From positions 1 to 33,635 of the forward strand of contig PLLC01000045.1 in the NCBI GenBank assembly GCA_003141195.1: DNA of 33,635 bases. The letters are read 5' to 3'. Positions 8,592-31,639 of the stretch are shown piece after piece. Source of the stretch: Syntrophaceae bacterium (GTDB taxonomy: Bacteria > Desulfobacterota > Syntrophia > Syntrophales > UBA5619). How positions within the stretch are numbered: position 1 is the stretch's first letter; each line of letters begins with the position of its first letter. Both the position numbers and the translations under genes were made by a program. A model generated the notes under the pieces. That model saw only the letters and a program-made list of their open reading frames with translations, did no database searches and was not told the origin of the DNA.

Positions 8592-8602
8592 CCGGTGACG
8601 GG

Positions 8603-8642: not shown

Positions 8643-8672
8643 TTATTGATGAGGGGTAAAGGGGAGTTTAAA

Positions 8673-9146: not shown

Positions 9147-9149
9147 CCG

Positions 9150-10439: not shown

Positions 10440-10481
10440 AAGACCGACGGACGGCTAAAACGTAATCAAACCGGGGGAAAC

Positions 10482-12333: not shown

Positions 12334-12400
12334 TTTTTCGGGAATTTTGCATCGGCGGGCGCCCATTAAAATCCCCATGGAAAGCGCAGGGAAAGGCAAA

Positions 12401-13225
12401 ATGAAATTCGGCATCTGCAACGAGCTGTTCGAGAACTGGCCGTGGGAAAAGCTTTGCGATTTTGTGCGCTCAGTTGGCTACCAGGGCATCGAGGTGGCGC
12501 CCTTCACGCTGGCCGACCGCGCGGAAGGAATCACACAGCAGCGGCGGGCGGCGCTGCGCGAATCGGCCGGATCACGGGGGCTGGAGATTATCGGCCTGCA
12601 CTGGCTGTTAACGAAACCGCCGAGGCTTTACATCACACACCCGGATTCGGGTATCCGAAGGGAAACGGCCCGGTATTTCGCGGAACTCGTCGGCCTCTGC
12701 GCGGACCTGGGGGGAAAGGTGATGGTGATCGGTTCGCCGAAGCAGCGGAGCTTGCTGCCCGGCGTGAGGCGCGAGCAGGCGATGGGGTACGCGGCGGAAG
12801 TCTTCACGCCCTGCCTGGAGTCCGCGGCAGAGCGCGGCGTGACGCTCGCGATCGAGCCCCTCAGCACGCGCGAAACCGATTTTCTCACATGCGCCGCCGA
12901 TGCCGTGGAGCTGATCGAGCGGATCAACCACACCAATTTCCGTCTGCAACTGGATGTCAAGGCCATGAGCTATGAGTACAAGCCGATCCCGCAGATCATC
13001 CTGGAATCGGCAAGGCACCTGGCCCACTTCCACGTCAACGACCCCAATCTGCTGGGGCCGGGCATGGGTAAGATCCGCTATGAACCGATCATCGCGGCCC
13101 TGCGCGAAGCGGGATACGACGGGTGGCTCTCCGTCGAGGCCTTCGATTTTGGCTACGGGGCCCGGGAGATCGCCAGAAAGAGCGAGGTCTACCTGAAGCG
13201 GGTCATGGCCTACTCTTCAAAATAG
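12401..13225 (+). CDS. Sugar phosphate isomerase/epimerase-like TIM barrel
   Basis: 274 residues of the AP-endonuclease-2/xylose-isomerase-like fold. Metal-ligand positions are visible on successive strands: E in LAIEPLS, D in LQLDVKAM, H in AHFHVNDPN and E in LSVEAFDF. These enzymes isomerise, epimerise or dehydrate keto-sugars and cyclitols. The start at 12401 has AGGGAAAGG upstream; a frame reading from 12257 overlaps the SDR and is not supported. It is the last gene of the operon, and its end overlaps the convergent IclR gene by nine bases. Confidence 0.85.
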   Translation: MKFGICNELFENWPWEKLCDFVRSVGYQGIEVAPFTLADRAEGITQQRRAALRESAGSRGLEIIGLHWLLTKPPRLYITHPDSGIRRETARYFAELVGLCADLGGKVMVIGSPKQRSLLPGVRREQAMGYAAEVFTPCLESAAERGVTLAIEPLSTRETDFLTCAADAVELIERINHTNFRLQLDVKAMSYEYKPIPQIILESARHLAHFHVNDPNLLGPGMGKIRYEPIIAALREAGYDGWLSVEAFDFGYGAREIARKSEVYLKRVMAYSSK

Positions 13226-13978
13226 TTTCATACAAATCCGTTGTGAAATTGACTCTGCGGTTTGCAGAACAAGCACTCGGATTTCCTCTCTCTTTGTTCT
13301 ACTCATTCTTTGTTTTGGAACGCTCACGCTAATAGCTGCAATGATGGTCCCGCTGCTATCTTTAATAGGGGCGGCCAAGCATTGAACCCCCTCGTGACAC
13401 TCCCCGTCATCGAAAGCATAACCCTGCTTTTTGATCTTTCTCACTTCTTTTAACAATTCGGATATATTGAAAATAGTTTTATTTGTTAATCGTACAAGAG
13501 GTGTACGACCAAAAGTTCCTAATAGCTCCTCCTCCGTCATATTAGAGATGAGCATTTTCCCTAGGGAGGATCCATGAACTGGAGCTCTTCCACCGACTTG
13601 CGTGCCTATAGTTAAGGCTCGGCTTCGCCCTCTTTTCTCAAGGGACACAACTTCGTTCTTGTCTAAAACTCCCAAATGAACTATTTCATCCGTCTGTTTC
13701 GCCAGTTCATCTAAAAAAGGAATTGCTGCAACTCTAATATCGAAATACCTACTCATTACAGCATTCCCAAGTTTAAGCAACTTCCAACTTAAACTATACG
13801 TTTTGTTTGATTCATTTTTTTCAAGGTAACCCGCCGATGAAAGCGACGCAAGGATCCGCGAGACAGTGCTTTTATCTAGGCATGCTTGTCGACTGATGTC
13901 CGTAACCCTCAATTCAGTATCTGCTGTACCGAAGACATCAAGTATTTTGTATAATTTTTTTAGAGATGAAAGAGTCAT
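13217..13978 (-). CDS. IclR-family transcriptional regulator
   Basis: 253 residues with an N-terminal winged helix-turn-helix (about 5-65; the ITDISRQA-like segment and DKSTVSRILASL form the recognition region) and a C-terminal effector-binding domain (ECHEGVQCLAAPIKDSSG). IclR proteins such as KdgR commonly control uronate and aromatic-acid catabolism. The gene is visibly more AT-rich than its neighbours, which suggests separate acquisition. Its upstream region contains one arm of a 96-bp inverted repeat whose other arm is the promoter region of the aldehyde dehydrogenase, so it probably regulates itself and that gene in parallel. The ribosome-binding site is weak (GGTGA). Confidence 0.92.
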   Translation of the reverse strand: MTLSSLKKLYKILDVFGTADTELRVTDISRQACLDKSTVSRILASLSSAGYLEKNESNKTYSLSWKLLKLGNAVMSRYFDIRVAAIPFLDELAKQTDEIVHLGVLDKNEVVSLEKRGRSRALTIGTQVGGRAPVHGSSLGKMLISNMTEEELLGTFGRTPLVRLTNKTIFNISELLKEVRKIKKQGYAFDDGECHEGVQCLAAPIKDSSGTIIAAISVSVPKQRMSRTKREEIRVLVLQTAESISQRICMKLF

Positions 13979-14768: not shown

Positions 14769-16190
14769 ATGGCTAAGGTACTGACAGAGGAAGAAAAAAA
14801 GCTTGCCCAGGAAATGTTGGTGCGGGCTAAGAAAGCGATGAAGGCGATCGAACACTACGACCAGAAGCAGGTCGACCGGTTATGCCAAGCGGTCGGTTGG
14901 CAGATCGGCAACGAGAAAAACGCCATCCAGTTGACCAACATGGCAGTCGATGAAAGCGACATTGGAGACCGGGCGCCGACCCGACGCTTCAAGGTTCTGG
15001 GTATCCTCAGGGACGCCCTCCGCCAGAAGAGCATGGGGATCATCGAGGAGATTCCCGAGAAGGGGATCACCAAGTATGCCAAGCCCGCCGGGATCGTCTG
15101 CGCGCTAATACCGACAACCAACCCCATTAATACCCCCATGGGAATCGCCATTTACGCCATTAAATGCAAAGATGCCGTGATTTTTGGGCCTCATCCGTCC
15201 AGCAAGAAGAGCACCAATGAAGCCGTGCGCCTGATGCGCAAGGCGCTCAGGAAGGCGGGTGCGCCAGAGGACCTTCTCCAATGCGTCGCGCAGCCGAGTA
15301 TCCCGATGGCGCAGAAATTGATGTCTATCTGCGATTTGACTGTAGCCACGGGCGGCGGACCGATGGTGAAGGCTGCCTACAGTTCCGGCAAACCGGCCCT
15401 TGGCGTGGGACCTGGAAACTCAACAATGGTGATCGATGAAACGGCGGATGTCGAGCAAGCGGCGAGGAACACCCGCGAGAGCAAGACCAACGACAACGGT
15501 TCCGGCTGTTCAGCGGACGGAAACCTCGTAGTCCATGAATCCATCTACGATCGGTTTCTGGAGCGGCTCCAGAAAGAAGGCGGATACCTTTGCTCCGATG
15601 CGGAGAAGGAACTGGTCAGGAAAGTGTGGTGGGATGATGAGGGACATCGAATCTCAAAAACGGTTGCCCGTCCGGCATGGAAAGTCGGTGAAATGGCCGG
15701 TTTCAAGCTTCCCGAGGGCAAGACGTTCCTCATCGTTAAGGAGGATAATATTGGCAAGGAGCATTTGTTCTCGGGTGAAAAACTTGGCACCATGCTGGCG
15801 ATTTTCAAATACAGCGGCGAATTCGAGGTGGCCCTGGACATGGTACGCCAGATCTACGATGTCGGCGGGAAGGGCCATTCATGCGGCATCTACTCCTTCA
15901 ATGACGACCACATCCACCGTTTGGCGCTGGTGGCCCCCGTCTGCCGTATGATGGTCAGACAGGCCCAGTCTAAGGCCAATGCGGGATCCTTCACCAACGG
16001 CATGCCGATGACCGGTAGCCTAGGTTGCGGTTACTGGGGCGGTAATGCTACCTGCGAGAACATCCATCTCAAGCATTACATGAATGTGACTTGGGTCAGC
16101 AGACCGATCCCGGAGGATAGACCTTCAGAACAGGAACTCTTCGGTGAGTTTTACAACAGCGAAATTTTCGAAGTCGGTCGTGATGACTGA
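14769..16190 (+). CDS. CoA-acylating aldehyde dehydrogenase
   Basis: 473 residues, matching single-domain acylating dehydrogenases (EutE, SauS, AdhE N-terminal half). The motifs PTTNPINTP, GVGPGNSTMVIDETAD and the catalytic C247 in NDNGSGCSADGN are present. It should convert an aldehyde plus CoA and NAD(P) to the acyl-CoA. The start at 14769 (MAKVL) has GAGGAGG upstream; an upstream TTG reading adds only six residues. It is the first gene after the right arm of the promoter repeat and, with the TPP lyase downstream, would take the aldehyde that the lyase produces. The aldehyde is not identifiable; sulfoacetaldehyde, a semialdehyde or glycolaldehyde-type substrates are possible. Confidence 0.9.
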   Translation: MAKVLTEEEKKLAQEMLVRAKKAMKAIEHYDQKQVDRLCQAVGWQIGNEKNAIQLTNMAVDESDIGDRAPTRRFKVLGILRDALRQKSMGIIEEIPEKGITKYAKPAGIVCALIPTTNPINTPMGIAIYAIKCKDAVIFGPHPSSKKSTNEAVRLMRKALRKAGAPEDLLQCVAQPSIPMAQKLMSICDLTVATGGGPMVKAAYSSGKPALGVGPGNSTMVIDETADVEQAARNTRESKTNDNGSGCSADGNLVVHESIYDRFLERLQKEGGYLCSDAEKELVRKVWWDDEGHRISKTVARPAWKVGEMAGFKLPEGKTFLIVKEDNIGKEHLFSGEKLGTMLAIFKYSGEFEVALDMVRQIYDVGGKGHSCGIYSFNDDHIHRLALVAPVCRMMVRQAQSKANAGSFTNGMPMTGSLGCGYWGGNATCENIHLKHYMNVTWVSRPIPEDRPSEQELFGEFYNSEIFEVGRDD

Positions 16191-16209
16191 AACGGATTGT
16201 AACCTGGAA

Positions 16210-16270
16210 GGTAGAGCTATGCAGATGCGGTCTCAAGGACCCTGCCGGCCGACAGGGCGTCTACCTTTTT
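16210..16270 (+). other. Stem-loop with short T-run between two catabolic genes
   Basis: GGTAGA (16210-16215) pairs with TCTACC (16260-16265), followed by five T residues. An inner CCTG/CAGG stem adds structure. This could act as a leaky terminator between the dehydrogenase and the flavoenzyme. An isolated AGGAGG at 16311-16316 further on has no start codon at a proper distance. Confidence 0.35.
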
Positions 16271-16349
16271 GTCGGCGAGTGTTGTTGAGGAAACCGTCCG
16301 AGAAACATAAAGGAGGAAATTAACAAAAGACTATTAAGGAAGATAAGAT

Positions 16350-18290
16350 ATGAACTACAAACATCTTTTTGAGCCTTACACGCTAAGAGGGGTCACACTT
16401 AAAAATCGTCTCATCAGTGCTCCCTGCGAAAGAAATTATGCAAACACCGATGGTTCGGTTACACAACGGTATATCGACTACGTGGAGGAAAGGGCCAAAG
16501 GCGGTGTCGGCCTGATCAACATAGAGTCGATCTATGTGGACCCTGTGGGTCGAGGACATATACGACAGTTGGGGATCCACAACGACAGAATGATTCCAGG
16601 GCTAAAGCGGATGGTTGGTGCGGCCCATAAGCACGGCGCCATGATCGTGGCCCATCTCTACTCGGCAGGTCGGGAGGCGTCGTCGTACATTACCGGCAGG
16701 CAGCCGATCGCCCCTTCAAGCGTGCCCTGCAAGACCTTGGCGGGTGGGGACATGCCGAGGTCATTAACGCTGGTGGAGATTCAGGACCAGATCGAGATGT
16801 ACGGAGAGGCCGCCCACCGGGCTGTAGAGGCGGGATTCGACGTCATGATGATCCACGGCGCCCACGGTTACATGGTTGGTCAGTTCCTGTCCCTCTTCAG
16901 CAACAAGCGAAGCGATCAATATGGCGGCTCTTTCGAGAACCGTATGCGTTTCCCCCTGGAGGTCCTAGCCAAGATCCGCAGCGTCGTGGGGGACAAGGTG
17001 CCCATCGCCTATCGGATGAGCGGTGAAGAAAAACTGGAAGGCGGACTGGCCATCGAAGATTCGGTCCGGTTCTCGATCGCCTTGGAGCAGGCGGGTATCG
17101 ATCTGATTGATGTTTCCTCCGGGATCTACGAGTCGGTGGGCTGGATTGCCCAGTCGATGGCCTTTCCTCGAGGCTGTCTCGTGGAGGACGGTTGGAAGAT
17201 CAAACAGAATGTGAAGATTCCGGTTTCGATTGTGGGCAGGATCAATCATCCCGATCTGGCCGAGGAGATCCTGGCAGCGGGCAAGGCGGACTTCATTTCG
17301 TTGGGACGGGCGTTACACGCTGATCCCTATTGGCCGATGAAGGCGCTGGAAGGCCGGGTCGACGATATCCGAATCTGTCCGGCCTGCATGAGTTGCTCCG
17401 ACCAGTTGGCGACCAATCTCCCGATCACCTGCGCCATCAATCCGGAGGCTGGGAGGGAGAGCGAATTGAGAATCAAGCCGGCGCCAAAAACCAAGAAAGT
17501 CCTGGTTGTGGGGGCGGGCCCAGCCGGCATGGAAGCGGCGCGGGTGGCCTCTCTGCGCGGACACAAGGTGATCCTGTGCGAGAAGAGCGATCAGATGGGC
17601 GGACAGATCAACTATGCCTCCAGGCCCCATCATAAGAAGGAATTTTTGGGGATCATCAATTATCTTGAAGGCCAGCTGAGAAAATCGGACGTTGAGATCC
17701 GGATGGGGACGGCCGTTACGACTGACTTGATCAAGCGGATCAATCCTGATGCCGTGATCATCGCAACGGGTGCGGAGCCTGCCGTTCCTTTTACCCCGGG
17801 TGCGGACAAAAAACATGTATGCACGGCTATCGATGTGCTTTCCGGGAAAACCATTCTGAGGAAGGGACCGACAGTTCTGATCGGAGCTGGATTGGTGGGG
17901 ATGGAAACCGCACTGTTTCTGGAGGAAGAAGGGATCACGCCGATCATCATCATTGAACCTACGGACAAACTGGGCGGGAATATCGGGTTGCGGACTGGCC
18001 TGTTTGCACGTAATTCCGTAAACAGCAGCCCCAATATCGAGGTCAAGCTCAAGACGACCGTCGAAGAGATCAAGGACGATTCAATCATCATCCAGAAAGA
18101 GGGAAGGTATGACGAACTTCTGGTGAAAAATATCGTGTTGGCCGCGGGGATGAGAAACAACAACGACCTTGCCGAAGAGCTCAAGGCGGCGGGGTTTGCC
18201 GCCGAATTATATCTGGTCGGGGATTGCAATTTCCCCCGCACGATCAAGGAAGCCACTGAAGAAGGGGCAATTGCAGCCCACAAAATATAG
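16350..18290 (+). CDS. FadH-like FMN/FAD/4Fe-4S NADH:flavin oxidoreductase
   Basis: 646 residues, the usual length of 2,4-dienoyl-CoA reductase, 2-enoate reductase and BaiCD-type enzymes. An old-yellow-enzyme TIM barrel (1-340) carries IHGAHGYMVGQFLS with H169 and H172. The Fe-S cluster cysteines are C343, C346, C349 and C361. The C-terminal FAD/NAD part has GAGPAG at 388-393 and a second Rossmann motif GAGLVGMETA. Electrons pass from NADH through FAD and the cluster to FMN, which reduces an activated C=C bond. The start has AAGGAAG seven bases upstream. The chemistry suggests reduction of an unsaturated carbonyl intermediate under anaerobic conditions; the substrate is unknown. Confidence 0.93.
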   Translation: MNYKHLFEPYTLRGVTLKNRLISAPCERNYANTDGSVTQRYIDYVEERAKGGVGLINIESIYVDPVGRGHIRQLGIHNDRMIPGLKRMVGAAHKHGAMIVAHLYSAGREASSYITGRQPIAPSSVPCKTLAGGDMPRSLTLVEIQDQIEMYGEAAHRAVEAGFDVMMIHGAHGYMVGQFLSLFSNKRSDQYGGSFENRMRFPLEVLAKIRSVVGDKVPIAYRMSGEEKLEGGLAIEDSVRFSIALEQAGIDLIDVSSGIYESVGWIAQSMAFPRGCLVEDGWKIKQNVKIPVSIVGRINHPDLAEEILAAGKADFISLGRALHADPYWPMKALEGRVDDIRICPACMSCSDQLATNLPITCAINPEAGRESELRIKPAPKTKKVLVVGAGPAGMEAARVASLRGHKVILCEKSDQMGGQINYASRPHHKKEFLGIINYLEGQLRKSDVEIRMGTAVTTDLIKRINPDAVIIATGAEPAVPFTPGADKKHVCTAIDVLSGKTILRKGPTVLIGAGLVGMETALFLEEEGITPIIIIEPTDKLGGNIGLRTGLFARNSVNSSPNIEVKLKTTVEEIKDDSIIIQKEGRYDELLVKNIVLAAGMRNNNDLAEELKAAGFAAELYLVGDCNFPRTIKEATEEGAIAAHKI

Positions 18291-18453
18291 AAGATGGGAA
18301 TTCTGAATCCTATCAATCGGCATTGTAAAGTGAACAACATTTCCGTTCGAAGAACGTCATATCCCCTCGACCCGGAAATCCTGACCCGATTCCGGAAAAC
18401 CGAACGGCTGATTTCTACCGACTGCACCATCAATATTCAAAGGAGAAAAAGCC

Positions 18454-18570
18454 ATGGCCGATGAACCAGAATTTAAAAGACTTCTATCCCCCTGTGCCCA
18501 TGAATTGTATAAAGCGGAAGAACAGGATGGTAAAAAATGCAGCCAGGGGAACTTCGCCGTTTGTTCTTAA
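18454..18570 (+). CDS. Small 38-residue Cys-containing ORF
   Basis: The ORF MADEPEF...FAVCS is preceded by AAAGGAG with eight bases of spacing, a better ribosome-binding site than many true genes here. It has cysteines at 14, 29 and 37 and no recognised domain. A second overlapping frame (ATG at 18500 to a stop near 18610) ends in FVLNEIGKGGLIAHAI, which looks protein-like, so this may instead be one decayed longer gene with a frameshift. It fills part of a 413-bp gap between the flavoenzyme and the TIM-barrel gene. Function unknown. Confidence 0.4.
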   Translation: MADEPEFKRLLSPCAHELYKAEEQDGKKCSQGNFAVCS

Positions 18571-18703
18571 TGAGATCGGCAAAGGCGGTCTGATCGCCCA
18601 TGCCATTTGAGAAACAAACCGGCTCTTTAGGATAGCGAGATAAAGGGAAACACGCGTGTCGTATAACGATGAGAATTGCCATGCCCAATGAAGGAGGTCG
18701 AAA

Positions 18704-19525
18704 GTGCAGGCATTGAAACTCGGGACCGCTCAATACGCATACATCTTAAACTACACGATGGATTATACGCTCAAGGAACTCAAGGAGCTGGGATTTCGAT
18801 ACATCGAAATCATGACGGCGCCGCCCCATATCTGGCCGCCGGCCTTCGATCAGAATCAGCGGAAGGCCTTGCGCAATCAAATCGAAAACCTCGGCCTGGA
18901 GCTGGTCGCGATCAATCCGACCTATCTGGATCTCAACATGGCCAGCCCCAACCCCGGCATGAGAGAGGAGAGCGTCCGGCAGATCATCGACCAGATTACG
19001 TTGGCCCATGATCTGGGGGCCAAGCTCATCGTGGTAATCATCGGCAAGCGCCATCCGCTGATCGCCTACCCGGTGGAGGTCGTGTGGGATAAATTTGCCA
19101 AAGAGGGGGTCCTGCGATGCGTGGAGCATGCCGAAAAGATGAACGTCATTTTCGGCTTGGAGAACGGTCCCTCCCTGTTTATCGACACGGTGGACAGGAT
19201 ACGCTTTGTGCTCGATCAGGTCCGCAGCAGCCATATGAAGGTCGTCTTTGACGTCGCCAACGCCTCCGTTGTCGAACCCATCGTTCCGGCCTTCGACAAG
19301 ATCAAGGAGGATCTCGTCCACATCCACCTGTCCGATACGGATATGAAGACCTGGACCCATTCGGGTATCGGAGAAGGGAAGATCGATTTTATTTCTATAG
19401 CAGCGAAACTTAGAGGGATCGACTACCAGGGCATTTCGATTCTGGAGACCACGATGCCGAATGAGCCCAGGGTGTCCATTATCGACTCAGTGGAAAAACT
19501 GACCCGTCTGGGATGGCACATCTGA
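18704..19525 (+). CDS. TIM-barrel sugar isomerase/dehydratase (IolE/IolI-like)
   Basis: 273 residues of the xylose-isomerase-like fold. Predicted metal ligands fall on successive strands: E in FGLENGPS, D in VVFDVANA, H in LVHIHLSDTD and E in ISILETTM. The GTG start has a strong AAGGAGG seven bases upstream. It lies only 31 bp before the TPP-dependent enzyme, an arrangement like the iolE-iolD step in inositol breakdown, where a keto-cyclitol is dehydrated before TPP-dependent ring cleavage. Whether this protein is a dehydratase, epimerase or isomerase cannot be told from motifs. It is not a close copy of the other TIM-barrel gene at 12401. Confidence 0.85.
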   Translation: MQALKLGTAQYAYILNYTMDYTLKELKELGFRYIEIMTAPPHIWPPAFDQNQRKALRNQIENLGLELVAINPTYLDLNMASPNPGMREESVRQIIDQITLAHDLGAKLIVVIIGKRHPLIAYPVEVVWDKFAKEGVLRCVEHAEKMNVIFGLENGPSLFIDTVDRIRFVLDQVRSSHMKVVFDVANASVVEPIVPAFDKIKEDLVHIHLSDTDMKTWTHSGIGEGKIDFISIAAKLRGIDYQGISILETTMPNEPRVSIIDSVEKLTRLGWHI

Positions 19526-19556
19526 ACATAAAATTCTTTCAAGGAGGAGATGTACG

Positions 19557-21347
19557 ATGACGAAAATGAGAGGGGCGGATATCATCGCGGAATACTTAAC
19601 CAAAGAAAAGGTCCCGTACCTTTTTGGTCTTTGCGGCCATGGGGATATCGGATTCCTAGATGCCTTCTATGATCGGAAAGACAAGATCAAAACCATATCG
19701 GTCAGACACGAGCAGGCGGCGGGCCATATGGCAGACGCCTATTTCCGGGTGGCCCATAAACCGGTAGCGACGTTTACTTCCTGCGGACCCGGTTCCACCA
19801 ACCTTCCCACGGCCCTGGCCTCGGCGATGATGGATTCTTCAGCCTTCCTGTCCATAACCGGAAATGTTCCCACCTCTCAGTTTGGCAGATCCCCTTTTCA
19901 GGAGACGGGCCGTCATTATCAGGCGGAATTCTTCAATGTGGTTCGTCCGTATGTAAAGAAAAGCTATCAGGTAACCCGTGTGGAGCAGATTCCTCTCATG
20001 GTGAGACAGGCCTTCAAAACGATGATGACCGGCAGGACGGGACCGGTGCATCTCGATGTGCCGTTGAACTGCTTTGCGGAAGAAGCGGATGTGGAGGTTC
20101 CGGAACCCTCCCTCTGGCGGGACGGGATTTCCTCACGCAGTACAGGGGGCTCGGAACTTATGGAAAGGGCTATGGAGCTGCTGTTGGGGACGGACAAGCC
20201 CTGCATCATTGCCGGGCATGGGGCCGTCCTTTCAGAAGCCGCCCCCGAACTCATCAAGCTGGCGGAGCTGCTCAATATTCCTGTGGCGACGACGGCGAAC
20301 GGCAAAGGCGTCATCCCTGCAGACCATCAGCTCAGCCTGGGGCCGGTCGGGAGAAACGGAAGCTATATGGCCAATGAATCCTGCCGGTCCTGTGATGTCC
20401 TGCTGGCCCTCGGGGTGAAGTTCGATGATCGGCAAAGCAGCTCCTGGATTCCCGGCTACACCTTCAACATCCCACCGACGAAGCTCATTCACGTCGAGAT
20501 CGATTCTGATGAGATGGCCAGGAATTATCCACCCACAATAGGGATCCTGGGTGACGCAAAGACATTCCTGAAGGAGCTGCTGACCAAGCTGGAAAACCGC
20601 AAGATCAAGTTCGATGCCAAACGGAATGCGGAATGGCTCGGCAGCATCAGCGAATGGAGGAAAGGTTGGGAGTCTTTCAACCAACCCCAGTATATCTCCG
20701 ACGCTGTTCCCATCCAGCCGGAGAGACTTGTCAAGGACATTCGGGCGATCATGCCAAGGGACGGCATCCTCCTTGCGGACGTGGGCGAGCACCACAACTG
20801 GTTACTCCAGTTCTACGATGTCTACCAGCCCGGTGGGATGCTTCAGTCCTGGGGATTCGCCTCGATGGGTTTCGGCATTTGCGGCGTGCTGGGGGCCAAG
20901 CTGGCGGCTCCCGACAAGGTTTGCGTTTCCGTCTGCGGAGATGGGGGCTTCATGATGACGCCTCATATCCTCTGCACGGCGGTGGAATATGACATCCCAG
21001 CCGTCTGGATCATCTGGAACAACTACGGCTTTAATGTGATCCGTCATCAGGCAAACGGAGCGTGGCCCAAACGCGAGATTGCGACAAGCTTCCGGTGCGA
21101 AAAAACAGGTGAGCTGTTCAATCCCGATTTTGCGTCCCTGGCTGTTGCCTGCGGTGCCAAGGGTGCACGGGTTGAAAAACCGGGCGACTTCAAGGGCATC
21201 TTTGAGGAGGCCATCAGGTCAAACAGACCTTTCGTTATCGATGTGGCCGTCAACCGGCAGGTATTCGCCCCCTCCACGGGGACTTGGGTTCTGCCACCCT
21301 TTGGCTATGCGGAACCCTCGTATGGCAAACGAAATCTGAGAAAATAG
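19557..21347 (+). CDS. Thiamine-diphosphate-dependent C-C lyase or carboligase
   Basis: 596 residues with the three-domain order of the acetolactate synthase superfamily. The catalytic glutamate E52 in VRHEQAAGHMADAY activates TPP; GDGGF near 461 and the NN pair about 25 residues later bind Mg-diphosphate. RTGPVHLDVP marks the end of the first domain. Relatives include acetolactate synthase, IolD, cyclohexane-1,2-dione hydrolase and sulfoacetaldehyde acetyltransferase, and I cannot choose between them by eye. GGAGG precedes the start. The tandem with a TIM-barrel gene and an upstream CoA-acylating aldehyde dehydrogenase suggests cleavage of a 2-keto or 1,2-dione compound to an aldehyde or acid. 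Confidence 0.88.
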   Translation: MTKMRGADIIAEYLTKEKVPYLFGLCGHGDIGFLDAFYDRKDKIKTISVRHEQAAGHMADAYFRVAHKPVATFTSCGPGSTNLPTALASAMMDSSAFLSITGNVPTSQFGRSPFQETGRHYQAEFFNVVRPYVKKSYQVTRVEQIPLMVRQAFKTMMTGRTGPVHLDVPLNCFAEEADVEVPEPSLWRDGISSRSTGGSELMERAMELLLGTDKPCIIAGHGAVLSEAAPELIKLAELLNIPVATTANGKGVIPADHQLSLGPVGRNGSYMANESCRSCDVLLALGVKFDDRQSSSWIPGYTFNIPPTKLIHVEIDSDEMARNYPPTIGILGDAKTFLKELLTKLENRKIKFDAKRNAEWLGSISEWRKGWESFNQPQYISDAVPIQPERLVKDIRAIMPRDGILLADVGEHHNWLLQFYDVYQPGGMLQSWGFASMGFGICGVLGAKLAAPDKVCVSVCGDGGFMMTPHILCTAVEYDIPAVWIIWNNYGFNVIRHQANGAWPKREIATSFRCEKTGELFNPDFASLAVACGAKGARVEKPGDFKGIFEEAIRSNRPFVIDVAVNRQVFAPSTGTWVLPPFGYAEPSYGKRNLRK

Positions 21348-21621: not shown

Positions 21622-22500
21622 ATGGATCTTTCGATTTTCATTCAAACAGTCACATCTGGAGTGCTCCTGGGTGGTCTGTATGGCTTGATTGCCCTGGGAA
21701 TGACGCTGATCTTCGGCGTCATGAGAATTATCAACTTGGCCCACGGCGAATTTCTGATGATCGGGATGTACGTCAGTTACATCCTCTTTACAAAATTTGG
21801 GGTGGATCCTTACGTCTCCATTGTCGTAAGTGTCCCTCTGTTATTTGTCATCGGCATTGCGATTCAGCGTTTCCTCCTGATGCCCCTCATCAAGGCCAAG
21901 GCCCCGGGGGAAAATCAGATCCTGATGACCGCCGGAATCGGGCTTGTCTTGACGAACGCCGCCCTGCTGATTTTTTCACCAAACTATTTCACCGTATTGA
22001 CCACCTACTCGAACGCAACCGCCAGTATCGGGAAAATATCGGTCAGCCTTCCGCTGCTCTGGGATTTTCTCATTTGCTTCGGCATCACCGGGATCCTCTA
22101 CCTCTTCATCATGAAGACCGATACGGGCTGCTCGATTCGGGCCGTAGCACAGAACATTGATTCCGCGCGTCTCATGGGGATCAACATCGACAGGATCATG
22201 ATCATCACCTTCGGCGTCGGGGCCGCCTTGGTCGGCGCGGCGGGGACGCTCCTCATGCCCATCTTCTACGTATTCCCGGCGATCGGAGAACTCTTTACCC
22301 TCAAGGCCTTCATCGTCACGGTCCTCGGGGGAATGGGAAGCGCTCTCGGCGCCCTGGTCGGCGGCGTGACACTGGGTGTGGTCGAGCAGATGGGAGCCAC
22401 CTATATCTCCATGGCGTTGAAGGATGCGCTCGGGTTTGTCATCTTCGTGTTGGTATTGATCTTCAGACCGTCCGGGCTGGTCGGTAAGTCGAGATTTTAG
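21622..22500 (+). CDS. livH: Branched-chain amino acid-type ABC permease LivH
   Basis: 292 residues with about eight hydrophobic segments. Family signatures GLYGLIALGMTLIFGVMRIINLAHG near the N-terminus (about 18-42) and the conserved coupling region RAVAQNIDSARLMGIN are clear. It is the first gene of livHMGF, with livM 17 bp after. Liv-type importers also carry aromatic acids, amides and short carboxylates, so the name does not fix the substrate. Confidence 0.94.
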   Translation: MDLSIFIQTVTSGVLLGGLYGLIALGMTLIFGVMRIINLAHGEFLMIGMYVSYILFTKFGVDPYVSIVVSVPLLFVIGIAIQRFLLMPLIKAKAPGENQILMTAGIGLVLTNAALLIFSPNYFTVLTTYSNATASIGKISVSLPLLWDFLICFGITGILYLFIMKTDTGCSIRAVAQNIDSARLMGINIDRIMIITFGVGAALVGAAGTLLMPIFYVFPAIGELFTLKAFIVTVLGGMGSALGALVGGVTLGVVEQMGATYISMALKDALGFVIFVLVLIFRPSGLVGKSRF

Positions 22501-22517
22501 AGGCAATAAGGTCTGCT

Positions 22518-23468
22518 ATGACAAAATGGAACGACATACTGAAAAACCGTCATTTACCTGCGGTGTTGCTTGCTTTGATTGCCCTGGTCTTGCCGCTCGT
22601 GCTCCGAAATGAGTATTACCTCCATCTGGCCATACTCATCTTGCTCTGGACGGCCCTGGGCGCGAGTTGGAATCTGCTGGGCGGATATACGGGACAGGTC
22701 TCCTTCGGTCACAGCGTCTTCTTCGGAATGGGCGCCTACGTCTCGTTGCTCCTCCATACTAAGCTGGGGGTTTCCCTCTGGATGGGCCTCCTCTACGCCG
22801 GGATCGCCGCCTCGCTCATTGCCATCCCGATCGGCTGGATCTGTTTTCGGTTGCGAGGCCCTTACTTTTCTCTCTCGATCCTGGCCTTTTCCGAGGTCCT
22901 GCGGCTCATCGTCCTGCACTGGAAAGAGGTGACCGAAGGTGCCGTGGGGATCCTCCTGATCAATTCGATCGTTGATTCAAAGGTCAGCTTCTACTATCTC
23001 ATGCTGATTGTGACCGCGATCATTCTGCTTGTCGTCAACTTCGTCGTCAAACGAAAGCTGGGCTTCTATTTCATCGCCATCCGCGACGATGAAGAAGCGG
23101 CAGAGGCATTGGGCATCTATACGACCCGCTATAAGATTTACTCCCTCATGATCAGCGCCTTTTTCACGGGGGTGATGGGCAGTCTGTTTGCCAACTACAC
23201 CTCCTATATCGATCCCTACATTGTCTTTTCCGTCGGCGACGTCGCGATCGCGATGGTGCTTGTTGTTGTCCTGGGCGGGATCGGAACTTTCTGGGGTCCG
23301 CTGGTCGGGGCCATCTGCGTCGTCATGGTCAATGAAGGATCCCGGCTCATGTTTGCCAATGCCAGTGTTCTCATCTACGGTGCGCTGGTCGTCATCGTCA
23401 TCCTGTTTTTGCCCAAGGGAGTCGTGGGGAGTCTGAAACAATACACCGGCAAGTGGTTTCATGCATAA
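22518..23468 (+). CDS. livM: Branched-chain amino acid-type ABC permease LivM
   Basis: 316 residues, eight to ten hydrophobic segments. The conserved LGASWNLLGGYTGQVSFGH region lies near 50-68 and the EAA-like coupling segment RDDEEAAEALGI near 192-203. It pairs with LivH as the second half of the channel. AAGG precedes the ATG. The LivG ATG at 23461 would overlap it, but a better-spaced LivG start lies 16 bp after the stop. Confidence 0.94.
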   Translation: MTKWNDILKNRHLPAVLLALIALVLPLVLRNEYYLHLAILILLWTALGASWNLLGGYTGQVSFGHSVFFGMGAYVSLLLHTKLGVSLWMGLLYAGIAASLIAIPIGWICFRLRGPYFSLSILAFSEVLRLIVLHWKEVTEGAVGILLINSIVDSKVSFYYLMLIVTAIILLVVNFVVKRKLGFYFIAIRDDEEAAEALGIYTTRYKIYSLMISAFFTGVMGSLFANYTSYIDPYIVFSVGDVAIAMVLVVVLGGIGTFWGPLVGAICVVMVNEGSRLMFANASVLIYGALVVIVILFLPKGVVGSLKQYTGKWFHA

Positions 23469-23484
23469 AGGGGGGATTCAGTCG

Positions 23485-24207
23485 ATGCTGCTCGAAGTGA
23501 ATGGATTGACCAAAGCTTTTGCAGGCCTTGTGGCGGTGAACGAAGTGGATTTCACCGTTCAGAAGGGGGAGATCCTGGGATTGATCGGGCCCAACGGCGC
23601 CGGTAAGACGACGATTTTCCATCTGCTGACAGGTTACTACACGCCGACGGCCGGGACGGTCCTTTTCAATGGAAAAGACATGACCCGTGTGACGCCGCCC
23701 GCTGCTTGCCGTCTCGGTCTGACGCGGACCTTCCAGATCGTCAAACCGCTAGTGCAGTTGACGGTCCTGGAAAACGTCATGGTGGGCGCCTTCGCCAAGA
23801 TCGGGAACGCCAAAAAGGCAAAAGAACTTGCCCTGGAGATTCTCGAATTTACCGGTCAGCTCGCCTGCAAGGACATGTTGGCGGGGAACCTCACCCTGGG
23901 AATGCGCAAGCGTTTGGAGGTCTCCCGGGCCTTGGCGACGCAACCGGAGCTGCTACTCCTTGATGAGACCATGGCCGGTTTGAATTCCAAAGAGATTGCC
24001 GATGCCGTGAAGCTGATCATGAAGATCAGAGAGAGGGGAATTACCCTGGTGGTGATCGAGCATGTGATGAAGGCGATCATGTCGATCTCCGACCGCATCG
24101 TCGTCATTAACTATGGCAAGAAGATTATGGAAGGATGCCCGGATGCTGTCTGCAACGATCAGCAGGTCATACAGGCCTATTTAGGAGCAGATTATGCTAA
24201 GCGTTAA
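23485..24207 (+). CDS. livG: ABC transporter ATPase LivG
   Basis: 240 residues from the start at 23485 (MLLEVNGLTK), chosen because AGGGGGG lies nine bases upstream; a start at 23461 adds eight residues. Walker A GPNGAGKTT, Walker B LLLLDETMAGL and the H-loop VIEHVM are intact. The signature loop reads LTLGMRKRLEVSRAL rather than LSGGQ, in line with the variation seen in the LivG group. It hydrolyses ATP with LivF. The end overlaps livF by 14 bases. Confidence 0.94.
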   Translation: MLLEVNGLTKAFAGLVAVNEVDFTVQKGEILGLIGPNGAGKTTIFHLLTGYYTPTAGTVLFNGKDMTRVTPPAACRLGLTRTFQIVKPLVQLTVLENVMVGAFAKIGNAKKAKELALEILEFTGQLACKDMLAGNLTLGMRKRLEVSRALATQPELLLLDETMAGLNSKEIADAVKLIMKIRERGITLVVIEHVMKAIMSISDRIVVINYGKKIMEGCPDAVCNDQQVIQAYLGADYAKR

Positions 24208-24898
24208 GTGTCTCAATGTGTTTTATGGGGATGCCCAAGCCTTGTGGGATGTCTCCTTTGAAGTGCCTGAAAAGAAACTCGTCACCATTATTGGTTCCAA
24301 TGGCGCCGGTAAATCGACCCTCCTGAAGGCCATTTCCAACCTTCTGGTGTCCCGTTCCGGGGAGATTCAGATCCAGGGCCACGTGACCACGGGCTTGGCT
24401 GCCCACCACGTTGCAGAGCTGGGCGTGGCCCACGTCCCCGAAGGCCGCCAGCTCTTCCCGTTGATGACTGTGATGGAGAATCTCCGGATCGGTTCGGTCC
24501 TGCCGGAGGCGAAGGCGAAGAGGGAGGAAACCCTCCGCGAGGTTTTCGACCTGTTTCCGGTTCTTGGGGAGAGGCAATCCCAGATGGCCAACACCTTGAG
24601 CGGCGGCGAACAGCAGATGCTCGCCATCGGCAGAGGGTTGATGTTGAGGCCGAAGCTTCTTCTTCTGGACGAGCCTTCTCTGGGCTTGGCGCCCATGCTG
24701 GTGAGCCAGATTTTCGAGGTCATCAAGGAGATCAACTCCCGGGGGATCACTGTTTTATTGGTGGAACAGAATGTCCAGCGCTCCCTGGAGATGGCGGACG
24801 AAGGCTTCGTTCTCGAGAACGGTCGTATTACCATGAGCGGTTCGGGCCAGGAACTGCTGGTGAATGAGCATATCAAAACTGCATACCTCGGCTTGTAG
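24194..24898 (+). CDS. livF: ABC transporter ATPase LivF
   Basis: 234 residues. Walker A GSNGAGKST, canonical signature LSGGEQQMLAIGRGL, Walker B LLLLDEPSLGLAP and the H-switch-region LLVEQNV are present, as usual for LivF. AGGAG precedes the start, inside livG, so the two ATPases are coupled in translation. An IS3 scar begins about ten bases after its stop and separates it from the binding-protein gene. Confidence 0.95.
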   Translation: MLSVKCLNVFYGDAQALWDVSFEVPEKKLVTIIGSNGAGKSTLLKAISNLLVSRSGEIQIQGHVTTGLAAHHVAELGVAHVPEGRQLFPLMTVMENLRIGSVLPEAKAKREETLREVFDLFPVLGERQSQMANTLSGGEQQMLAIGRGLMLRPKLLLLDEPSLGLAPMLVSQIFEVIKEINSRGITVLLVEQNVQRSLEMADEGFVLENGRITMSGSGQELLVNEHIKTAYLGL

Positions 24899-24907
24899 AA
24901 CATCGGG

Positions 24908-25100
24908 GTGTGAGATATTCTACTCTATGAAAGAAGCCCAGGTGCTCATTGAGCAGTGGCGGCTGGAATACAACACGTTCAGGCCGCACAGCTCATTGAA
25001 GTATCGCCCCCCGGCACCGGAGGACTGGCTGCACTGAAAGACATAAAAAAAAGGAGGAAACTCTAACTCTGAATGTGGTACATATTTCGGGGGCAGGCCA
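24908..25100 (+). mobile_element. IS3-family right-end remnant with transposase tail
   Basis: The frame EIFYSMKEAQVLIEQW up to a stop at 25035-25037 ends LKYRPPAPEDW, the characteristic C-terminus of IS3-family OrfB (DDE integrase, with the RPHSSL motif). About 60 bases later GGGGGCAGGCCA at 25089-25100 looks like the IS3 right inverted repeat. The remaining element, including the catalytic core and left end, is absent. The junction is within about ten bases of the livF stop, so insertion plus deletion removed only spacer DNA. No open frame here is likely to be functional. Confidence 0.85.
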
Positions 25101-25223
25101 GTGTTGCGAAACTTTAACATGGAATACAGAAAGGAGGCGTATCGTCAAGTTCCGTGGCAAGAGCATGTAAAATCGAAAACTTCTGAGTGTTATTTTTTAA
25201 CTGAAAAACATAGGAGGGGAGAT

Positions 25224-26429
25224 ATGAAGAAAATAGCTATCGTTTTGTTTGCGGCGTTTTTCATGCTGTCTTTCGGCTCAACCGTATCGGTTCAGACACT
25301 TTTTGCACAGGACACCGTCAAAATTGGTGTTCCCAACTCACTGACGGGACGACACGCACCCTTTGGACAGCACATGAAACGCGCCTTCGATCTAGCAGCG
25401 GAGGAGATCAACGCCGCCGGCGGGATCAACGGGAAAAAACTGGTATTGGTCCATGAGGACGATCAGAGTAAGCCGGAAATCTCCATCACCGTCACCCAGA
25501 AGCTGATCCAGGATCCCAGCATCCTCATGCTGACGGGCCAGTATAGCAGCAGCGATACGTACCCGGCCGCCGCCCTGGCCGAAAAGGCGAAGATGCCCTT
25601 CATGATTTCCACCGCCGCCGCCGACAACATCACCCAGTCCGGGTGGAAGTACATCTTCAGAATGGCGCAGCCGGCGACCGACTTCGACACAGGTATACAG
25701 GAATGGCTCCTCAAGGATATCAAACCCAAAAGCGTCGTCATGATCTACGAAAACTCGTTGTTCGGGACGAGCACGGCCAAGGCCATGAAGAAGTGGGCAG
25801 ACGACAACAAGATCGCTGTTCCCATCTTCGAGGCATACGATGCAACTTCGGTCGATTTCAAGCCCCTCCTTCTCAAATTGAAGGCCGTCAACCCCGATGT
25901 GGTCTATGCCGTTTCTTATCTGATGGATGCGACCCTGATCGCCCGGCAGATGAAGGAGATCGATTTCAATGTGAAGGCCTTCTGCGGTAGCGCGGCCGGC
26001 TACTCCATCCCCGAGTTCCTGACCGGTACGGGCGATGCGGCAGAATACGTTTATGCCTCCACTATGTGGGAAAAGACCGTTCCCTATCCCGGCGCCAAGG
26101 AGTTCGAAGAGAAATACCAGAAGAAATACAACATGAAACCGCCTTACCATGCGGCCCAGGCCTATGCCTCGGCCTATGTCTGCGCCGACATCCTCAAGCG
26201 GGCGAAATCCCTGACGAGAGAAGCGGTCACCGAGTCCATGGCCCAGACGGACCTCATGACGATTTACGGACGTGTCAAGTTCGGTAGCTACGGTGACTTC
26301 ACGCATCAGTGCAAACTGCCCACCCTGGTCCTCCAGGTACAGAAGAAGAATTTCGAAGTTGTGTATCCGACCAGCGCTGCGACCGCAAAGTGGGTATATC
26401 CCGTTCCCAAGTGGAACGACAGGAAATAG
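25224..26429 (+). CDS. livK: Liv-type ABC substrate-binding protein
   Basis: 401 residues with a Sec signal peptide (MKKIAIVLFAAFFMLSFG, cut near residue 28) and the periplasmic type I binding fold (KIGVPNSLTGRHAPFGQ; AAEEINAAGGINGKKLVLVHEDDQ). The start at 25224 has GGAGGGGAG upstream; an earlier reading from 25101 begins inside IS-derived DNA. A possible TAAAAT -10 box lies at about 25168. The ligand is unknown. It is divided from livHMGF by the IS3 scar, so it may need its own promoter. A G-run hairpin follows the stop. Confidence 0.92.
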   Translation: MKKIAIVLFAAFFMLSFGSTVSVQTLFAQDTVKIGVPNSLTGRHAPFGQHMKRAFDLAAEEINAAGGINGKKLVLVHEDDQSKPEISITVTQKLIQDPSILMLTGQYSSSDTYPAAALAEKAKMPFMISTAAADNITQSGWKYIFRMAQPATDFDTGIQEWLLKDIKPKSVVMIYENSLFGTSTAKAMKKWADDNKIAVPIFEAYDATSVDFKPLLLKLKAVNPDVVYAVSYLMDATLIARQMKEIDFNVKAFCGSAAGYSIPEFLTGTGDAAEYVYASTMWEKTVPYPGAKEFEEKYQKKYNMKPPYHAAQAYASAYVCADILKRAKSLTREAVTESMAQTDLMTIYGRVKFGSYGDFTHQCKLPTLVLQVQKKNFEVVYPTSAATAKWVYPVPKWNDRK

Positions 26430-26463: not shown

Positions 26464-26583
26464 ACCTGTTTCAACCCCTCAGGGCATCTTCCCCGAATCT
26501 TGCTCTATAGAAGACGCTCGTTTATTCATCGGGTGATGCCTGGGAGTTTTACTGCAGGGGTAGTTCATCGCGGAGGTGTCGAG

Positions 26584-26940
26584 ATGAAAGCCAAGATTTT
26601 CAAGGCCGAGGAGGTGAATTGGAGCGAAGCCCCCGGCCATTTCAGCGCTTTTTCCAAAATGCTGGTCAACGAAACCTGCGGCTCGCGATACTTTGATTTT
26701 CGGGTTTCAAGTTACCAGCCGAAGGGTTACTGCGAGACCCATTCTCATCAGACGGCTGAAAATATTTATTACATTCTGAAGGGCGAGGGTATCGTGGAGT
26801 TGGATGGCAAAAGGCATCTGGTCAGCCCGGGCGTGGTGATTTTTATCCCCCCCAAGGTGAAGCACGCGATCATCAATACGGGATTTGAGGATCTTATTTT
26901 CATTGTTGCCGCTTCTCCGCCGCAGGACATGCCCAAATAG
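26584..26940 (+). CDS. Single-domain cupin protein
   Basis: 118 residues, one cupin fold. Metal ligands H53, H55, E59 and H94 (ETHSHQTAEN; KVKHAI) are all present, so a divalent metal site is likely. The start has GGAGG eight bases upstream; the longer in-frame reading begins inside the binding-protein gene. Such small cupins act as isomerases, dioxygenases or sugar-modifying enzymes; nothing here decides which. It sits downstream of the liv genes, possibly cotranscribed. Confidence 0.85.
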   Translation: MKAKIFKAEEVNWSEAPGHFSAFSKMLVNETCGSRYFDFRVSSYQPKGYCETHSHQTAENIYYILKGEGIVELDGKRHLVSPGVVIFIPPKVKHAIINTGFEDLIFIVAASPPQDMPK

Positions 26941-28381: not shown

Positions 28382-29095
28382 ATGGCAACTCTCAACGGCA
28401 AAAATGTCTTGGTGATCGGCGGCAGCTCCGGAATCGGCTTCGCGACGGCGGCGGGCGCGCTTGCGGCAGGCGCAAAGGTGACAATTGCCAGCCGCTCGGA
28501 GGAAAAGCTTCGCTCCGCCCAGGAGCTGCTTCAGGCCCCGGTCGAGGCCCGCCGGATCGATGTCGCGGACGGCGCAAGCGTCTCGGCCTTTTTCGATGCT
28601 TCACCCGTCTACGACCATATCGTGATCAGCGGCGCCGCGTTCAAGTTCGGCACCGTTCGCGATCAGGATATTGAAGAGGCCTATGCTGCGATGAACGTCA
28701 AGTTCTGGGGCGCGTATCGCGTGGTGAAAAAGGCGAAAGTTGCCCCGGATGGCTCGTTCGTATTCGTCTCGGGCTTCCTGAGCCGCCGCCCGAAGCCCGG
28801 CATGGCGCTTGTCGGCGCCATCAACGCCGCCCTCGAAACCCTGGCTCAGGGGCTCGCGCTGGAGATGGCGCCGATCCGCTTTAATGTGGTCTCTCCCGGT
28901 ATTGTTGACACCCCGACTCGGGCCGCGATGCCGGCGGAGGCGAGAAAAACGATGCTCGAAAACATTGCCAGGACCCTCCCGGTCAAGCGTGTCGGCCTGG
29001 CCGAGGACATCTCCGACCAAATCCTGCTATTCCTGCGGAATACGTTTGCGACCGGAACCGTCGTCTATCTCGATGGCGGAGGTCTGCTGGTCTGA
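28382..29095 (+). CDS. SDR-fold protein lacking the catalytic Tyr-xxx-Lys
   Basis: 237 residues. The cofactor motif GGSSGIG is intact and the fold matches SDRs, ending PVKRVGLAEDISDQI and GTVVYLDGGGLLV. In the place of YxxxK the sequence reads GMALVGAINAALETL, with no Tyr or Lys, so standard proton-relay chemistry is not expected. A related SDR subgroup of this type is known to me by pattern, with AINAALE in this position. It may bind NAD(P) and work by other residues. GGAGG precedes the start. Compare the canonical SDR at 11572. Confidence 0.82.
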   Translation: MATLNGKNVLVIGGSSGIGFATAAGALAAGAKVTIASRSEEKLRSAQELLQAPVEARRIDVADGASVSAFFDASPVYDHIVISGAAFKFGTVRDQDIEEAYAAMNVKFWGAYRVVKKAKVAPDGSFVFVSGFLSRRPKPGMALVGAINAALETLAQGLALEMAPIRFNVVSPGIVDTPTRAAMPAEARKTMLENIARTLPVKRVGLAEDISDQILLFLRNTFATGTVVYLDGGGLLV

Positions 29096-29175
29096 GTCGG
29101 TACCGGGAAGCCCCACCCTTTGGGCCGGGAGCTTCACATGGCGGAAGTATTCAGCGAATCGAAGGAGGAATGACA

Positions 29176-29676
29176 ATGGTGAAAAAAGCCGCGCAATCGT
29201 GGTCGCTCAAGATGACGACGCCGCTGGAGTCGGGGATCGTATGCAACGATATTGAGCAAATGCTCAAGTTCTATGTTGACGTCCTGGGTCTCAGGCTGGT
29301 CGCGGATGCCAGCACGACGCCGGAACTCAGCAGGCGTTTGGGCAGTACGCCCCACGGATATCGGATTGTCCGATTGCAAACGCCTTATGGTGAAAGAATT
29401 AAACTTGTCCAGCCGGCCAAGCAACCCCCGAAACCGAATCCTGTTCCGGAATGGCTCTATGAACGTCACGGAATTGCCTACCTTACCTTCGTTATCGATG
29501 GGATCAAGCGAGTGGCAAAGCACTTGAAAGAGCACGGGGTGAAACTGACCAGCGACGAACCCATCGAGGTGCGTAACGGTGTCTTTGCATTATATGCGAC
29601 CGATCCGGAAGGTAATTTCATCGAGTTTGTCGAGTATCCCGATATCGCTTCCTATCGACCCGACCTTGTAAAATGA
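29176..29676 (+). CDS. Glyoxalase/VOC-superfamily protein
   Basis: 166 residues, two beta-alpha-beta-beta-beta repeats (DIEQMLKFYVDVLGLRL and a second ending DPEGNFIEFVEY). Ligand residues appear as E in FIEFVEYP and H in RHGIAYLTF. The start at 29176 has AAGGAGG seven bases upstream; ATG at 29170 is one base from it. Relatives include glyoxalase I, methylmalonyl-CoA epimerase and ring-cleaving dioxygenases. The reaction is not resolved. Confidence 0.82.
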   Translation: MVKKAAQSWSLKMTTPLESGIVCNDIEQMLKFYVDVLGLRLVADASTTPELSRRLGSTPHGYRIVRLQTPYGERIKLVQPAKQPPKPNPVPEWLYERHGIAYLTFVIDGIKRVAKHLKEHGVKLTSDEPIEVRNGVFALYATDPEGNFIEFVEYPDIASYRPDLVK

Positions 29677-31630: not shown

Positions 31631-31639
31631 ATGATGGTC

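Follow-up and report, generated by a model that had tools for sequence, protein, structure and literature searches.

Gene content of the locus

The draft genome (3.27 Mb) of a Syntrophaceae bacterium (GCA_003141195.1) includes a 41.4 kb contig, PLLC01000045.1, of which we analysed the first 33.6 kb (33,635 bp; referred to below as the window). We focused on a forward-strand gene cluster that begins at position 14,769 and includes a gene for a thiamine diphosphate (ThDP)-dependent enzyme, preceded by genes for a CoA-acylating aldehyde dehydrogenase (ALDH), an old-yellow-enzyme (OYE) reductase and a TIM-barrel protein, and followed by a Liv-type importer (Table 1). The ThDP enzyme falls on the same side of the phylogenetic tree as the inositol-ring hydrolase IolD, and we tentatively propose a role for the cluster in the breakdown of a carbocyclic acid.

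An earlier note on this DNA, made from its letters alone, had described a TIM-barrel gene 31 bp from a ThDP-dependent lyase gene and after an acylating ALDH gene, with a FadH-like reductase, a Liv importer and a CoA-transferase in place of iolB, iolC and iolJ. Open reading frames and Pfam domains agree with this arrangement (the 31 bp gap spans 19,526–19,556), and the reductase, importer and CoA-transferase were all found, the last continuing past the window end. The NCBIfam lists (the top 25 families or fewer for each protein) of the 20 window proteins scanned, which represent part of the open reading frames, contained no IolB, IolC or IolJ family.

Table 1. Genes of the cluster and its surroundings, with the basis of each assignment
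Feature	Position	Strand	Basis
IclR-family regulator, divergent from cluster	13217..13978	-	Pfam IclR_C, 4.6e-44
CoA-acylating ALDH, SauS/AdhE-N type	14769..16190	+	Pfam Aldedh, SauS model, PDB 8cei match
FadH/BaiCD-type OYE reductase, Fe-S and FAD domains	16350..18290	+	Pfam Oxidored_FMN and Pyr_redox_2
TIM-barrel isomerase/epimerase/dehydratase family	18704..19525	+	Pfam AP_endonuc_2 (PF01261)
ThDP-dependent enzyme, IolD side of POX family	19557..21347	+	all three Pfam TPP_enzyme domains
Liv-type ABC importer, complete (LivH, LivM, LivG, LivF, LivJ)	21622..26429	+	Pfam, NCBIfam
Small cupin	26581..26940	+	no NCBIfam family matched
GNAT protein	between cupin and SDR	+	listed in cluster
Short-chain dehydrogenase/reductase (SDR) (PRK07041)	28385..29095	+	278 bits, above cut-off 257; putative pathway member
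VOC/glyoxalase-fold protein	29170..29676	+	Pfam Glyoxalase
Universal stress protein	between VOC protein and second OYE	+	named by reading sequence
Second OYE-like protein	31631..33103	+	NamA model, 92 of 431 bits; putative pathway member
CoA-transferase subunit, cut by window end	33100..33635	+	named by reading sequence; putative pathway member
CoA-transferase partner, enoyl-CoA-hydratase-like, FAH-family and Zn-alcohol-dehydrogenase-like proteins	contig past window end		hydratase-like and FAH-family proteins by family match; putative pathway members

The ALDH scored highest against acylating families in NCBIfam (SauS, 456 bits; AdhE, 365 bits; EutE-like, 315 bits), all under their cut-offs, the curated value for SauS (NF047625) being 600 bits. 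It also matches a solved acetylating succinate-semialdehyde dehydrogenase (PDB 8cei, 6e-86) and keeps a Cys at residue 247; an upstream TTG at 14,751 is a possible alternative start. SauS and the N-terminal domain of AdhE are thus the nearest families, but no sulfonate genes were recognised in the cluster. The enzyme is not of the IolA/methylmalonate-semialdehyde dehydrogenase (MMSDH) kind, and the parallel with IolA drawn in the earlier note extends to reaction type only.

The first OYE carries a CPACMSC...C Fe-S cluster motif and scores below cut-off against both the BaiCD model (506 bits; cut-off 825) and the mycofactocin OYE 2 model (486 bits; cut-off 793). The TIM-barrel protein keeps the metal ligands E-D-H-E in the alignment; its best model is fructoselysine epimerase (69 of 305 bits), and its match to IolE (TIGR04379) is partial, with 22 bits against a cut-off of 290. 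It is IolE-like in fold only, so that the proposed IolE/IolI likeness holds for the fold and fails for the IolE family.

The ThDP protein falls on the IolD side of the tree, apart from acetolactate synthases

The best NCBIfam models for the ThDP protein are acetolactate synthases (434 of 866 bits, and 414 of 538 bits for TIGR00118), and its score with the IolD model (TIGR04377) is 242.5 bits, the cut-off being 715. We searched one genome per species across ~85,000 species for relatives. Among the best 80 of the 319 confirmed loci, at least 22 have a ThDP protein 50–85% identical to that of the window, with the next relatives dropping to 35% (loci and genomes are cited by L and G numbers). Plasmid records added six proteins at 50–54% identity, followed by haloarchaeal, Azoarcus and HisD-associated proteins at 34–39%. 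One plasmid, pUSP3 of Aminobacter sp. MSH1 (L116), has two ThDP genes of the window clade in a single cluster (4547–6349 and 10001–11782).

We built a main tree of 39 rows with annotated references for IolD, Xsc, Gcl, IlvI, IlvB, AlsS, PoxB and guanidino-oxopentanoate decarboxylase; cyclohexane-1,2-dione hydrolase (CDH) and the HKA synthase BbmA were outside the trees, and other rows of the main clade, including two fragments (L050, L055), were omitted. A split with support of 100/99 placed the window clade, an Azoarcus-type clade, the haloarchaeal proteins, the HisD-associated proteins and IolD together; the opposite side is made up of six rows of acetolactate-synthase type and eight further ones. 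This split survived removal of the motif columns (97 SH-aLRT). Constraining the window clade to group with acetolactate synthases cost 77 log units and was rejected by the approximately unbiased (AU) test (p = 0.00019); on the basis of the split and this test, we rejected the identification of the ThDP protein as an acetolactate synthase. IolD lies in a clade apart from that of the window, with the haloarchaeal and HisD-associated groups, on a long branch of ~2 changes per column, and its exact position is therefore unsure.

Two features of the alignment follow the same division. In all 25 rows on the IolD side, window residues 27–29 correspond to the motif G-H-[G, T or A]; the His is absent from the 14 others. 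The spacing between Gln115 and Lys134 is 20–22 residues in 25/25 IolD-side rows and 14–15 in 13/14 others; the fourteenth, a protein from contig 11 of the window's own genome, has a spacing of 20 in a poorly aligned stretch. The window protein and IolD thus have in common a G-H-G motif (His28) and a 6-residue insert after Gln115, the two not occurring together in other POX-family rows, and both have Ile at position 495. Tree and motifs make the ThDP protein kin of IolD, and its score far below the IolD cut-off shows that it is not IolD itself. The link to IolD made in the earlier note is borne out, and the objection it had foreseen, a firm grouping with biosynthetic acetolactate synthase, therefore falls.

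The HisD-associated proteins are encoded in clusters of another kind. The G-H-G-type ThDP genes of L124 (6570–9788) and L126 (8001–11224) adjoin genes for HisD-like dehydrogenases, together with GMC oxidoreductases and sugar ABC transporters, and in L125 a gene of this type lies within 7 kb of one for a HisD-like dehydrogenase. We read these three loci as a further catabolic cluster, so far without a name, belonging to the side of the tree that includes IolD.

Relatives of the ThDP gene recur beside genes for a cupin, a flavoprotein and aldehyde-oxidising enzymes

We compared the surroundings of 30 window-clade ThDP genes, up to 10 kb on each side (the whole window for the window itself), with those of 58 acetolactate synthase genes. 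Genes for TIM-barrel proteins (14/30 versus 0/58), cupins (15/30 versus 1/58), NAD-dependent ALDHs (10/30 versus 0/58), PF01370 proteins (11/30 versus 0/58) and LivF (16/30 versus 2/58) were more frequent near the ThDP genes. The neighbour models had been built partly from the same loci, and the controls were mostly from Psychrobacter and Moraxella; because this comparison was partly circular, with controls mostly from one family, we took 13 further loci together with controls from the same genomes.

The independent set comprised 13 new window-clade loci and 20 control stretches from five genomes, three that carry test loci (G579, G829 and G807) and two that carry loci of the first set (G447 and G448). 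The loci came from searches of 395 genomes of the phylum at 1e-120, six of which matched (the window's own among them), and of 385 genomes of the Siculibacillus class at 1e-150, where 12 matched (the starting genome among them). Gene calling was rough in the G+C-rich loci, and matches were therefore scored on all open frames. Cupins (11/13 versus 0/20, p = 4e-7), FAD_binding_2 flavoproteins (9/13 versus 0/20, p = 2e-5) and NAD-dependent ALDHs (4/13 versus 0/20, p = 0.017) were all enriched. A count of Pfam domains within 5 kb of the ThDP gene at the 13 loci, covering 68 of the 89 genes called after exclusion by hand of the ThDP genes and a few doubtful frames, put FAD_binding_2 first (8), followed by cupin (5) and PF01370 (4). 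Genes for IclR-family regulators were present in the compared stretches of 7/30 clade loci and 5/13 independent loci. We conclude that relatives of the ThDP gene have recurrent neighbours far above controls, although not this exact gene set, and that the small cupin and the flavoprotein are its most faithful partners. Liv transport was dropped as support because LivF is equally common in the same-genome controls. The TIM barrel, put forward in the earlier note as a partner of the ThDP enzyme, kept that standing at the loci that supplied the models and lost it in the independent set.

Enzymes that oxidise aldehydes adjoin the ThDP gene in several forms. In L140, from the same genus as the window, an ALDH 83% identical to that of the window is encoded ~16 bp from the gene for a different ThDP protein, and in L179, on a Desulfobacterales chromosome, a close ALDH homologue adjoins an Azoarcus-type ThDP protein; the gene for a third close ALDH (87%; G018) begins 0.3 kb from a contig end, with its upstream side out of view. 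Genes for NAD-dependent ALDHs occupy the equivalent place at, for example, L053, L057, L116–L118 and L120, aldehyde:ferredoxin oxidoreductase (AOR)-like proteins are encoded at L151 and L152, and a molybdenum hydroxylase at L175 and L178. Any aldehyde oxidiser was present at 6/13 test loci versus 1/20 same-genome controls (p = 0.008, with the molybdenum enzyme model taken from two of the test loci). The occurrence of unrelated enzymes of one chemistry beside one ThDP family suggests that the ThDP enzyme releases an aldehyde, which is compatible with both ring hydrolysis and decarboxylation.

Neighbours of the relatives favour a carbocyclic substrate

AroE, dehydroquinases, gallate dioxygenase, IolM and MMSDH have six-membered carbocycles, or compounds derived from them, as substrates or products, and all have genes near relatives of the ThDP gene. 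In the Azoarcus-type clade, L152 has an AroE over cut-off, whose gene overlaps the ThDP gene by 4 bases, together with AroQ and AOR; L122 has an annotated AroE and type I dehydroquinase, a QuiC-like TIM-barrel protein and an HPPD-N-like protein; and L179 (8218–13524; Desulfobacterales, CP070694.1) has, in a row, AroQ over cut-off, a cupin, the ThDP protein, the acylating ALDH and an IolG-like Gfo/Idh protein. Within the clade of the window itself, an AroQ-like gene is present on two Rhodobacterales plasmids, and in L041 (10001–13183; SAR324) a gallate dioxygenase (718 bits versus a cut-off of 412) is encoded directly downstream of a ThDP homologue of 76% identity. Two examples of the FAD_binding_2 flavoprotein matched PRK12843 and PRK06134 best, followed by ketosteroid and 4-oxocyclohexene-carboxylate dehydrogenases, every one of these matches being below its cut-off. 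On a Haloterrigena plasmid (L121), a G-H-G-type ThDP protein is encoded with an annotated IolM, an MMSDH that exceeds its cut-off, two Gfo/Idh proteins and a TIM barrel scoring 76 bits to IolE. Another haloarchaeal plasmid (L127) also encodes a G-H-G-type ThDP protein with IolM, and these two loci represent a candidate archaeal cyclitol route.

A carbocyclic substrate is thus favoured by the neighbours of the relatives. Counted strictly, a dehydroquinase or AroE was found at 3/4 Azoarcus-type loci, at 2/30 and 0/13 main-clade loci and at 0/78 controls, and the evidence for ring chemistry is therefore stronger for the sister, Azoarcus-type clade than for the window.

A proposed route through ThDP-dependent ring opening

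The ThDP enzyme most likely cleaves a C–C bond in a six-membered carbocyclic keto acid. For the cluster as a whole we tentatively favour, at close to an even chance, the import and degradation of an organic acid containing a six-membered carbocycle, which the ThDP enzyme would open in the manner of IolD to an aldehyde that then becomes an acyl-CoA. We infer the carbocyclic substrate, the hydrolytic ring opening, the order of steps and every substrate from the family membership, IolD kinship, motifs and recurrent partners described above. The Liv importer would take up the carbocyclic acid, the OYE and SDR oxidoreductases would adjust the redox state of the ring, and the TIM-barrel protein would probably dehydrate or isomerise it to a hydroxy-ketone or 1,2-dione. 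The C2 ylide of ThDP would then attack a ring carbonyl, and the adjoining C–C bond would be broken with water to give an open-chain aldehyde acid, as in IolD and CDH. The acylating ALDH would oxidise this aldehyde to an acyl-CoA, which the CoA-transferase and the enoyl-CoA-hydratase-like and FAH-family proteins would feed into central metabolism. The system may work like IolD but is not IolD; its proteins score below the curated cut-offs for IolD, IolE, SauS, BaiCD and acetolactate synthase.

Several observations weigh against this proposal. None of the other genomes examined contained exactly this set of five genes. In the independent set, the TIM barrel was not significantly enriched (2/13 versus 0/20, p = 0.15) and LivF was no commoner than in same-genome controls (7/13 versus 9/20). 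Full-length models rank acetolactate synthase (434 bits) over IolD (242 bits), both far under their cut-offs, and the closest solved structures are carboligases, namely acetolactate and HKA synthases (~30% identity). The flavoprotein is under the cut-offs of the ring-dehydrogenase models, dehydroquinase and AroE neighbours occur mostly in the sister group and not in the window clade, and both main-clade AroQ-like proteins are diverged, with the L119 copy below cut-offs. Finally, the HisD-associated proteins, which share this side of the tree, are encoded in clusters of sugar type. The inositol-like route of the earlier note is thus partly supported: the IolD kinship and the favoured carbocyclic substrate stand, while the IolE and IolA parallels shrink to fold and reaction type, the TIM-barrel partnership is weak and the exact set is unique to the window genome among those examined.

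A more specific version, which we consider speculative and unlikely, is an oxygen-free hydroaromatic route for quinate- or shikimate-type acids in which this ThDP family provides the missing ring-opening step. Non-aromatising breakdown of quinate occurs in fermenting bacteria. AroE and ring flavoproteins would oxidise the ring, dehydroquinase-type enzymes would dehydrate or rehydrate it, and the ThDP enzyme would split it without aromatisation, the aldehyde passing to acyl-CoA through an acylating ALDH or donating electrons to ferredoxin through AOR. The clearest example would be L179, with the window as a variant serving a related acid. In the open-access literature, with subscription journals mostly outside it, we found no paper on such a gene cluster or on an anaerobic quinate route with genes.

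The ThDP set spans several phyla, and the annotations in the records examined go no further than "thiamine pyrophosphate-binding protein" or "acetolactate synthase". If ring opening without oxygen is its true function, it would add to IolD and CDH another group of ThDP enzymes that open rings, and it could explain how anaerobes break down alicyclic plant acids without aromatisation. The G-H-G at residues 27–29 and the insert after Gln115 provide annotators with a motif that separates such enzymes from acetolactate synthase.

Active site and structure bear on decarboxylation and carboligation

The principal rival, which we regard as somewhat unlikely, is that the ThDP enzyme decarboxylates a linear 2-oxo acid, the product of a sugar acid or of ring cleavage, and that the neighbouring dehydrogenase would oxidise the aldehyde, to acyl-CoA in the window and to a free acid in aerobes. 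The ThDP protein keeps Glu52, Gln115, Ile495 and the GDG (461–463)/NN ThDP-binding motif, and 33 aligned members (A2) show no variation at Gln115, Glu116 or Ile495. We mapped the residue positions of a table in PMC13327070 through the Gcl and acetohydroxyacid synthase (AHAS) rows of our alignment. In that table, pyruvate-type decarboxylases have a Glu where the window protein has Ile495 and a His where it has Gln115; CDH has Asn484 and Gln116, and glyoxylate carboligase has Ile and Gln. The window protein thus has Ile495 and Gln115 in place of the PDC/IPDC decarboxylase signature (a Glu equivalent to AcHACL E493 and a His equivalent to Q128), which argues against decarboxylation, as do the kinship with IolD and the ring-dehydrogenase-like proteins and dehydroquinases among the neighbours. 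However, benzoylformate decarboxylase works without a carbanion-protonating Glu, according to the table in PMC13327070. Adjoining aldehyde oxidisers fit decarboxylation equally well, many clusters have PF01370 proteins and TIM barrels with a weak resemblance to D-erythronate dehydrogenase and sugar-acid isomerases, and in L041 the gallate dioxygenase encoded beside the ThDP gene would be a source of a 2-oxo acid.

An AlphaFold model of the ThDP protein (27-row alignment; pLDDT 88.5, pTM 0.91), in which insert residues 116–123 are poorly defined, matched AHAS (Z 46.8) and HKA synthase (BbmA, 8x3x; Z 45.7) best, at 29–33% identity, and CDH (PDB 2pgn, 4d5e) with Z 42. These structures and the retained FDDR motif would fit an AHAS- or HKA-synthase-like carboligase joining two 2-oxo acids in a biosynthetic or detoxification cluster. 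We consider this improbable. The tree and AU test, the lack of any small-subunit gene seen adjoining the ThDP gene, and the nearby catabolic-type importer, acylating ALDH and CoA-transferase all argue against it. AHAS, which the tree places apart, has neither a His at position 28 nor the insert, and BbmA likewise lacks the His.

CDH, whose reaction yields an aldehyde acid according to the same table in PMC13327070, has the same fold as the window protein but is 26% identical and has Asn484 where the window protein has Ile. Set beside His28, Gln116 and Asn484 of CDH, the window protein has a His28 of probable equivalence, a conserved Gln115 and Ile495. CDH His28 is named as a mutated active-site position in PMC12247030. 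In the structure comparison, CDH was superposed from residue 2 onward on residue 2 of the model, and the two His28 residues are therefore likely to be equivalent.

Partial conservation of the gene set

That five genes of different functions merely lie side by side is a reading we rate as low as carboligation. The exact set was seen nowhere else, the ALDH, OYE and TIM-barrel genes stand 159 bp and 413 bp apart, and L036 has a ThDP protein 85% identical to that of the window with the partners absent in 12.9 kb. By contrast, L038 holds three of the five genes (OYE, 67%; TIM barrel, 64%; ThDP, 79%), ALDH and ThDP recur together with three ThDP groups (window, L140 and L179), and the partner families exceed controls. 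The conservation that the earlier note had looked for thus exists in part, with three of the five genes in L038 and only ALDH and ThDP in L140 (G007) and L179. Further homologues in ThDP loci are an OYE (38%) in L039 and a TIM barrel (40%) in L049. L040 has the same ThDP-LivHMGFJ-cupin order, with Liv proteins of 58–76% identity. A homologue of the VOC protein (61%) is encoded directly upstream of the ThDP gene in L037, and others adjoin it in L057 and L149.

An ordinary inositol pathway with a diverged IolD is very improbable and was rejected: the IolD kinship, a Gfo/Idh protein 13 kb upstream (78 of 355 bits to IolG), a TIM-barrel gene adjoining the ThDP gene as iolE follows iolD in Paracoccus, and the 3-oxoacid CoA-transferase, which belongs to anaerobic inositol breakdown in Anaerostipes according to PMC8355322, would fit it, but the IolD model gives 242 of 715 bits, no protein in the genome exceeds the IolD cut-off (the window ThDP protein scoring best), the TIM-barrel protein is not IolE, and the window has an acylating ALDH, an OYE and a Liv importer instead of IolB, IolC and IolJ, which were not seen among the scanned proteins.

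Other gene sets in the window

The Gfo/Idh protein belongs to a separate co-directional set at 6343–13225, which also encodes TRAP transporter P/Q/M proteins, an SDR, a TIM barrel with 101 bits to the 5-keto-gluconate epimerase IolO, and a protein that reads as glycoside-hydrolase-88-like and has no NCBIfam match. This set looks like one for the use of a uronide or oligosaccharide. On the reverse strand, 2286–5455 encodes a two-component pair that most resembles AtoSC, scoring 503 of 714 bits and 222 of 646 bits.

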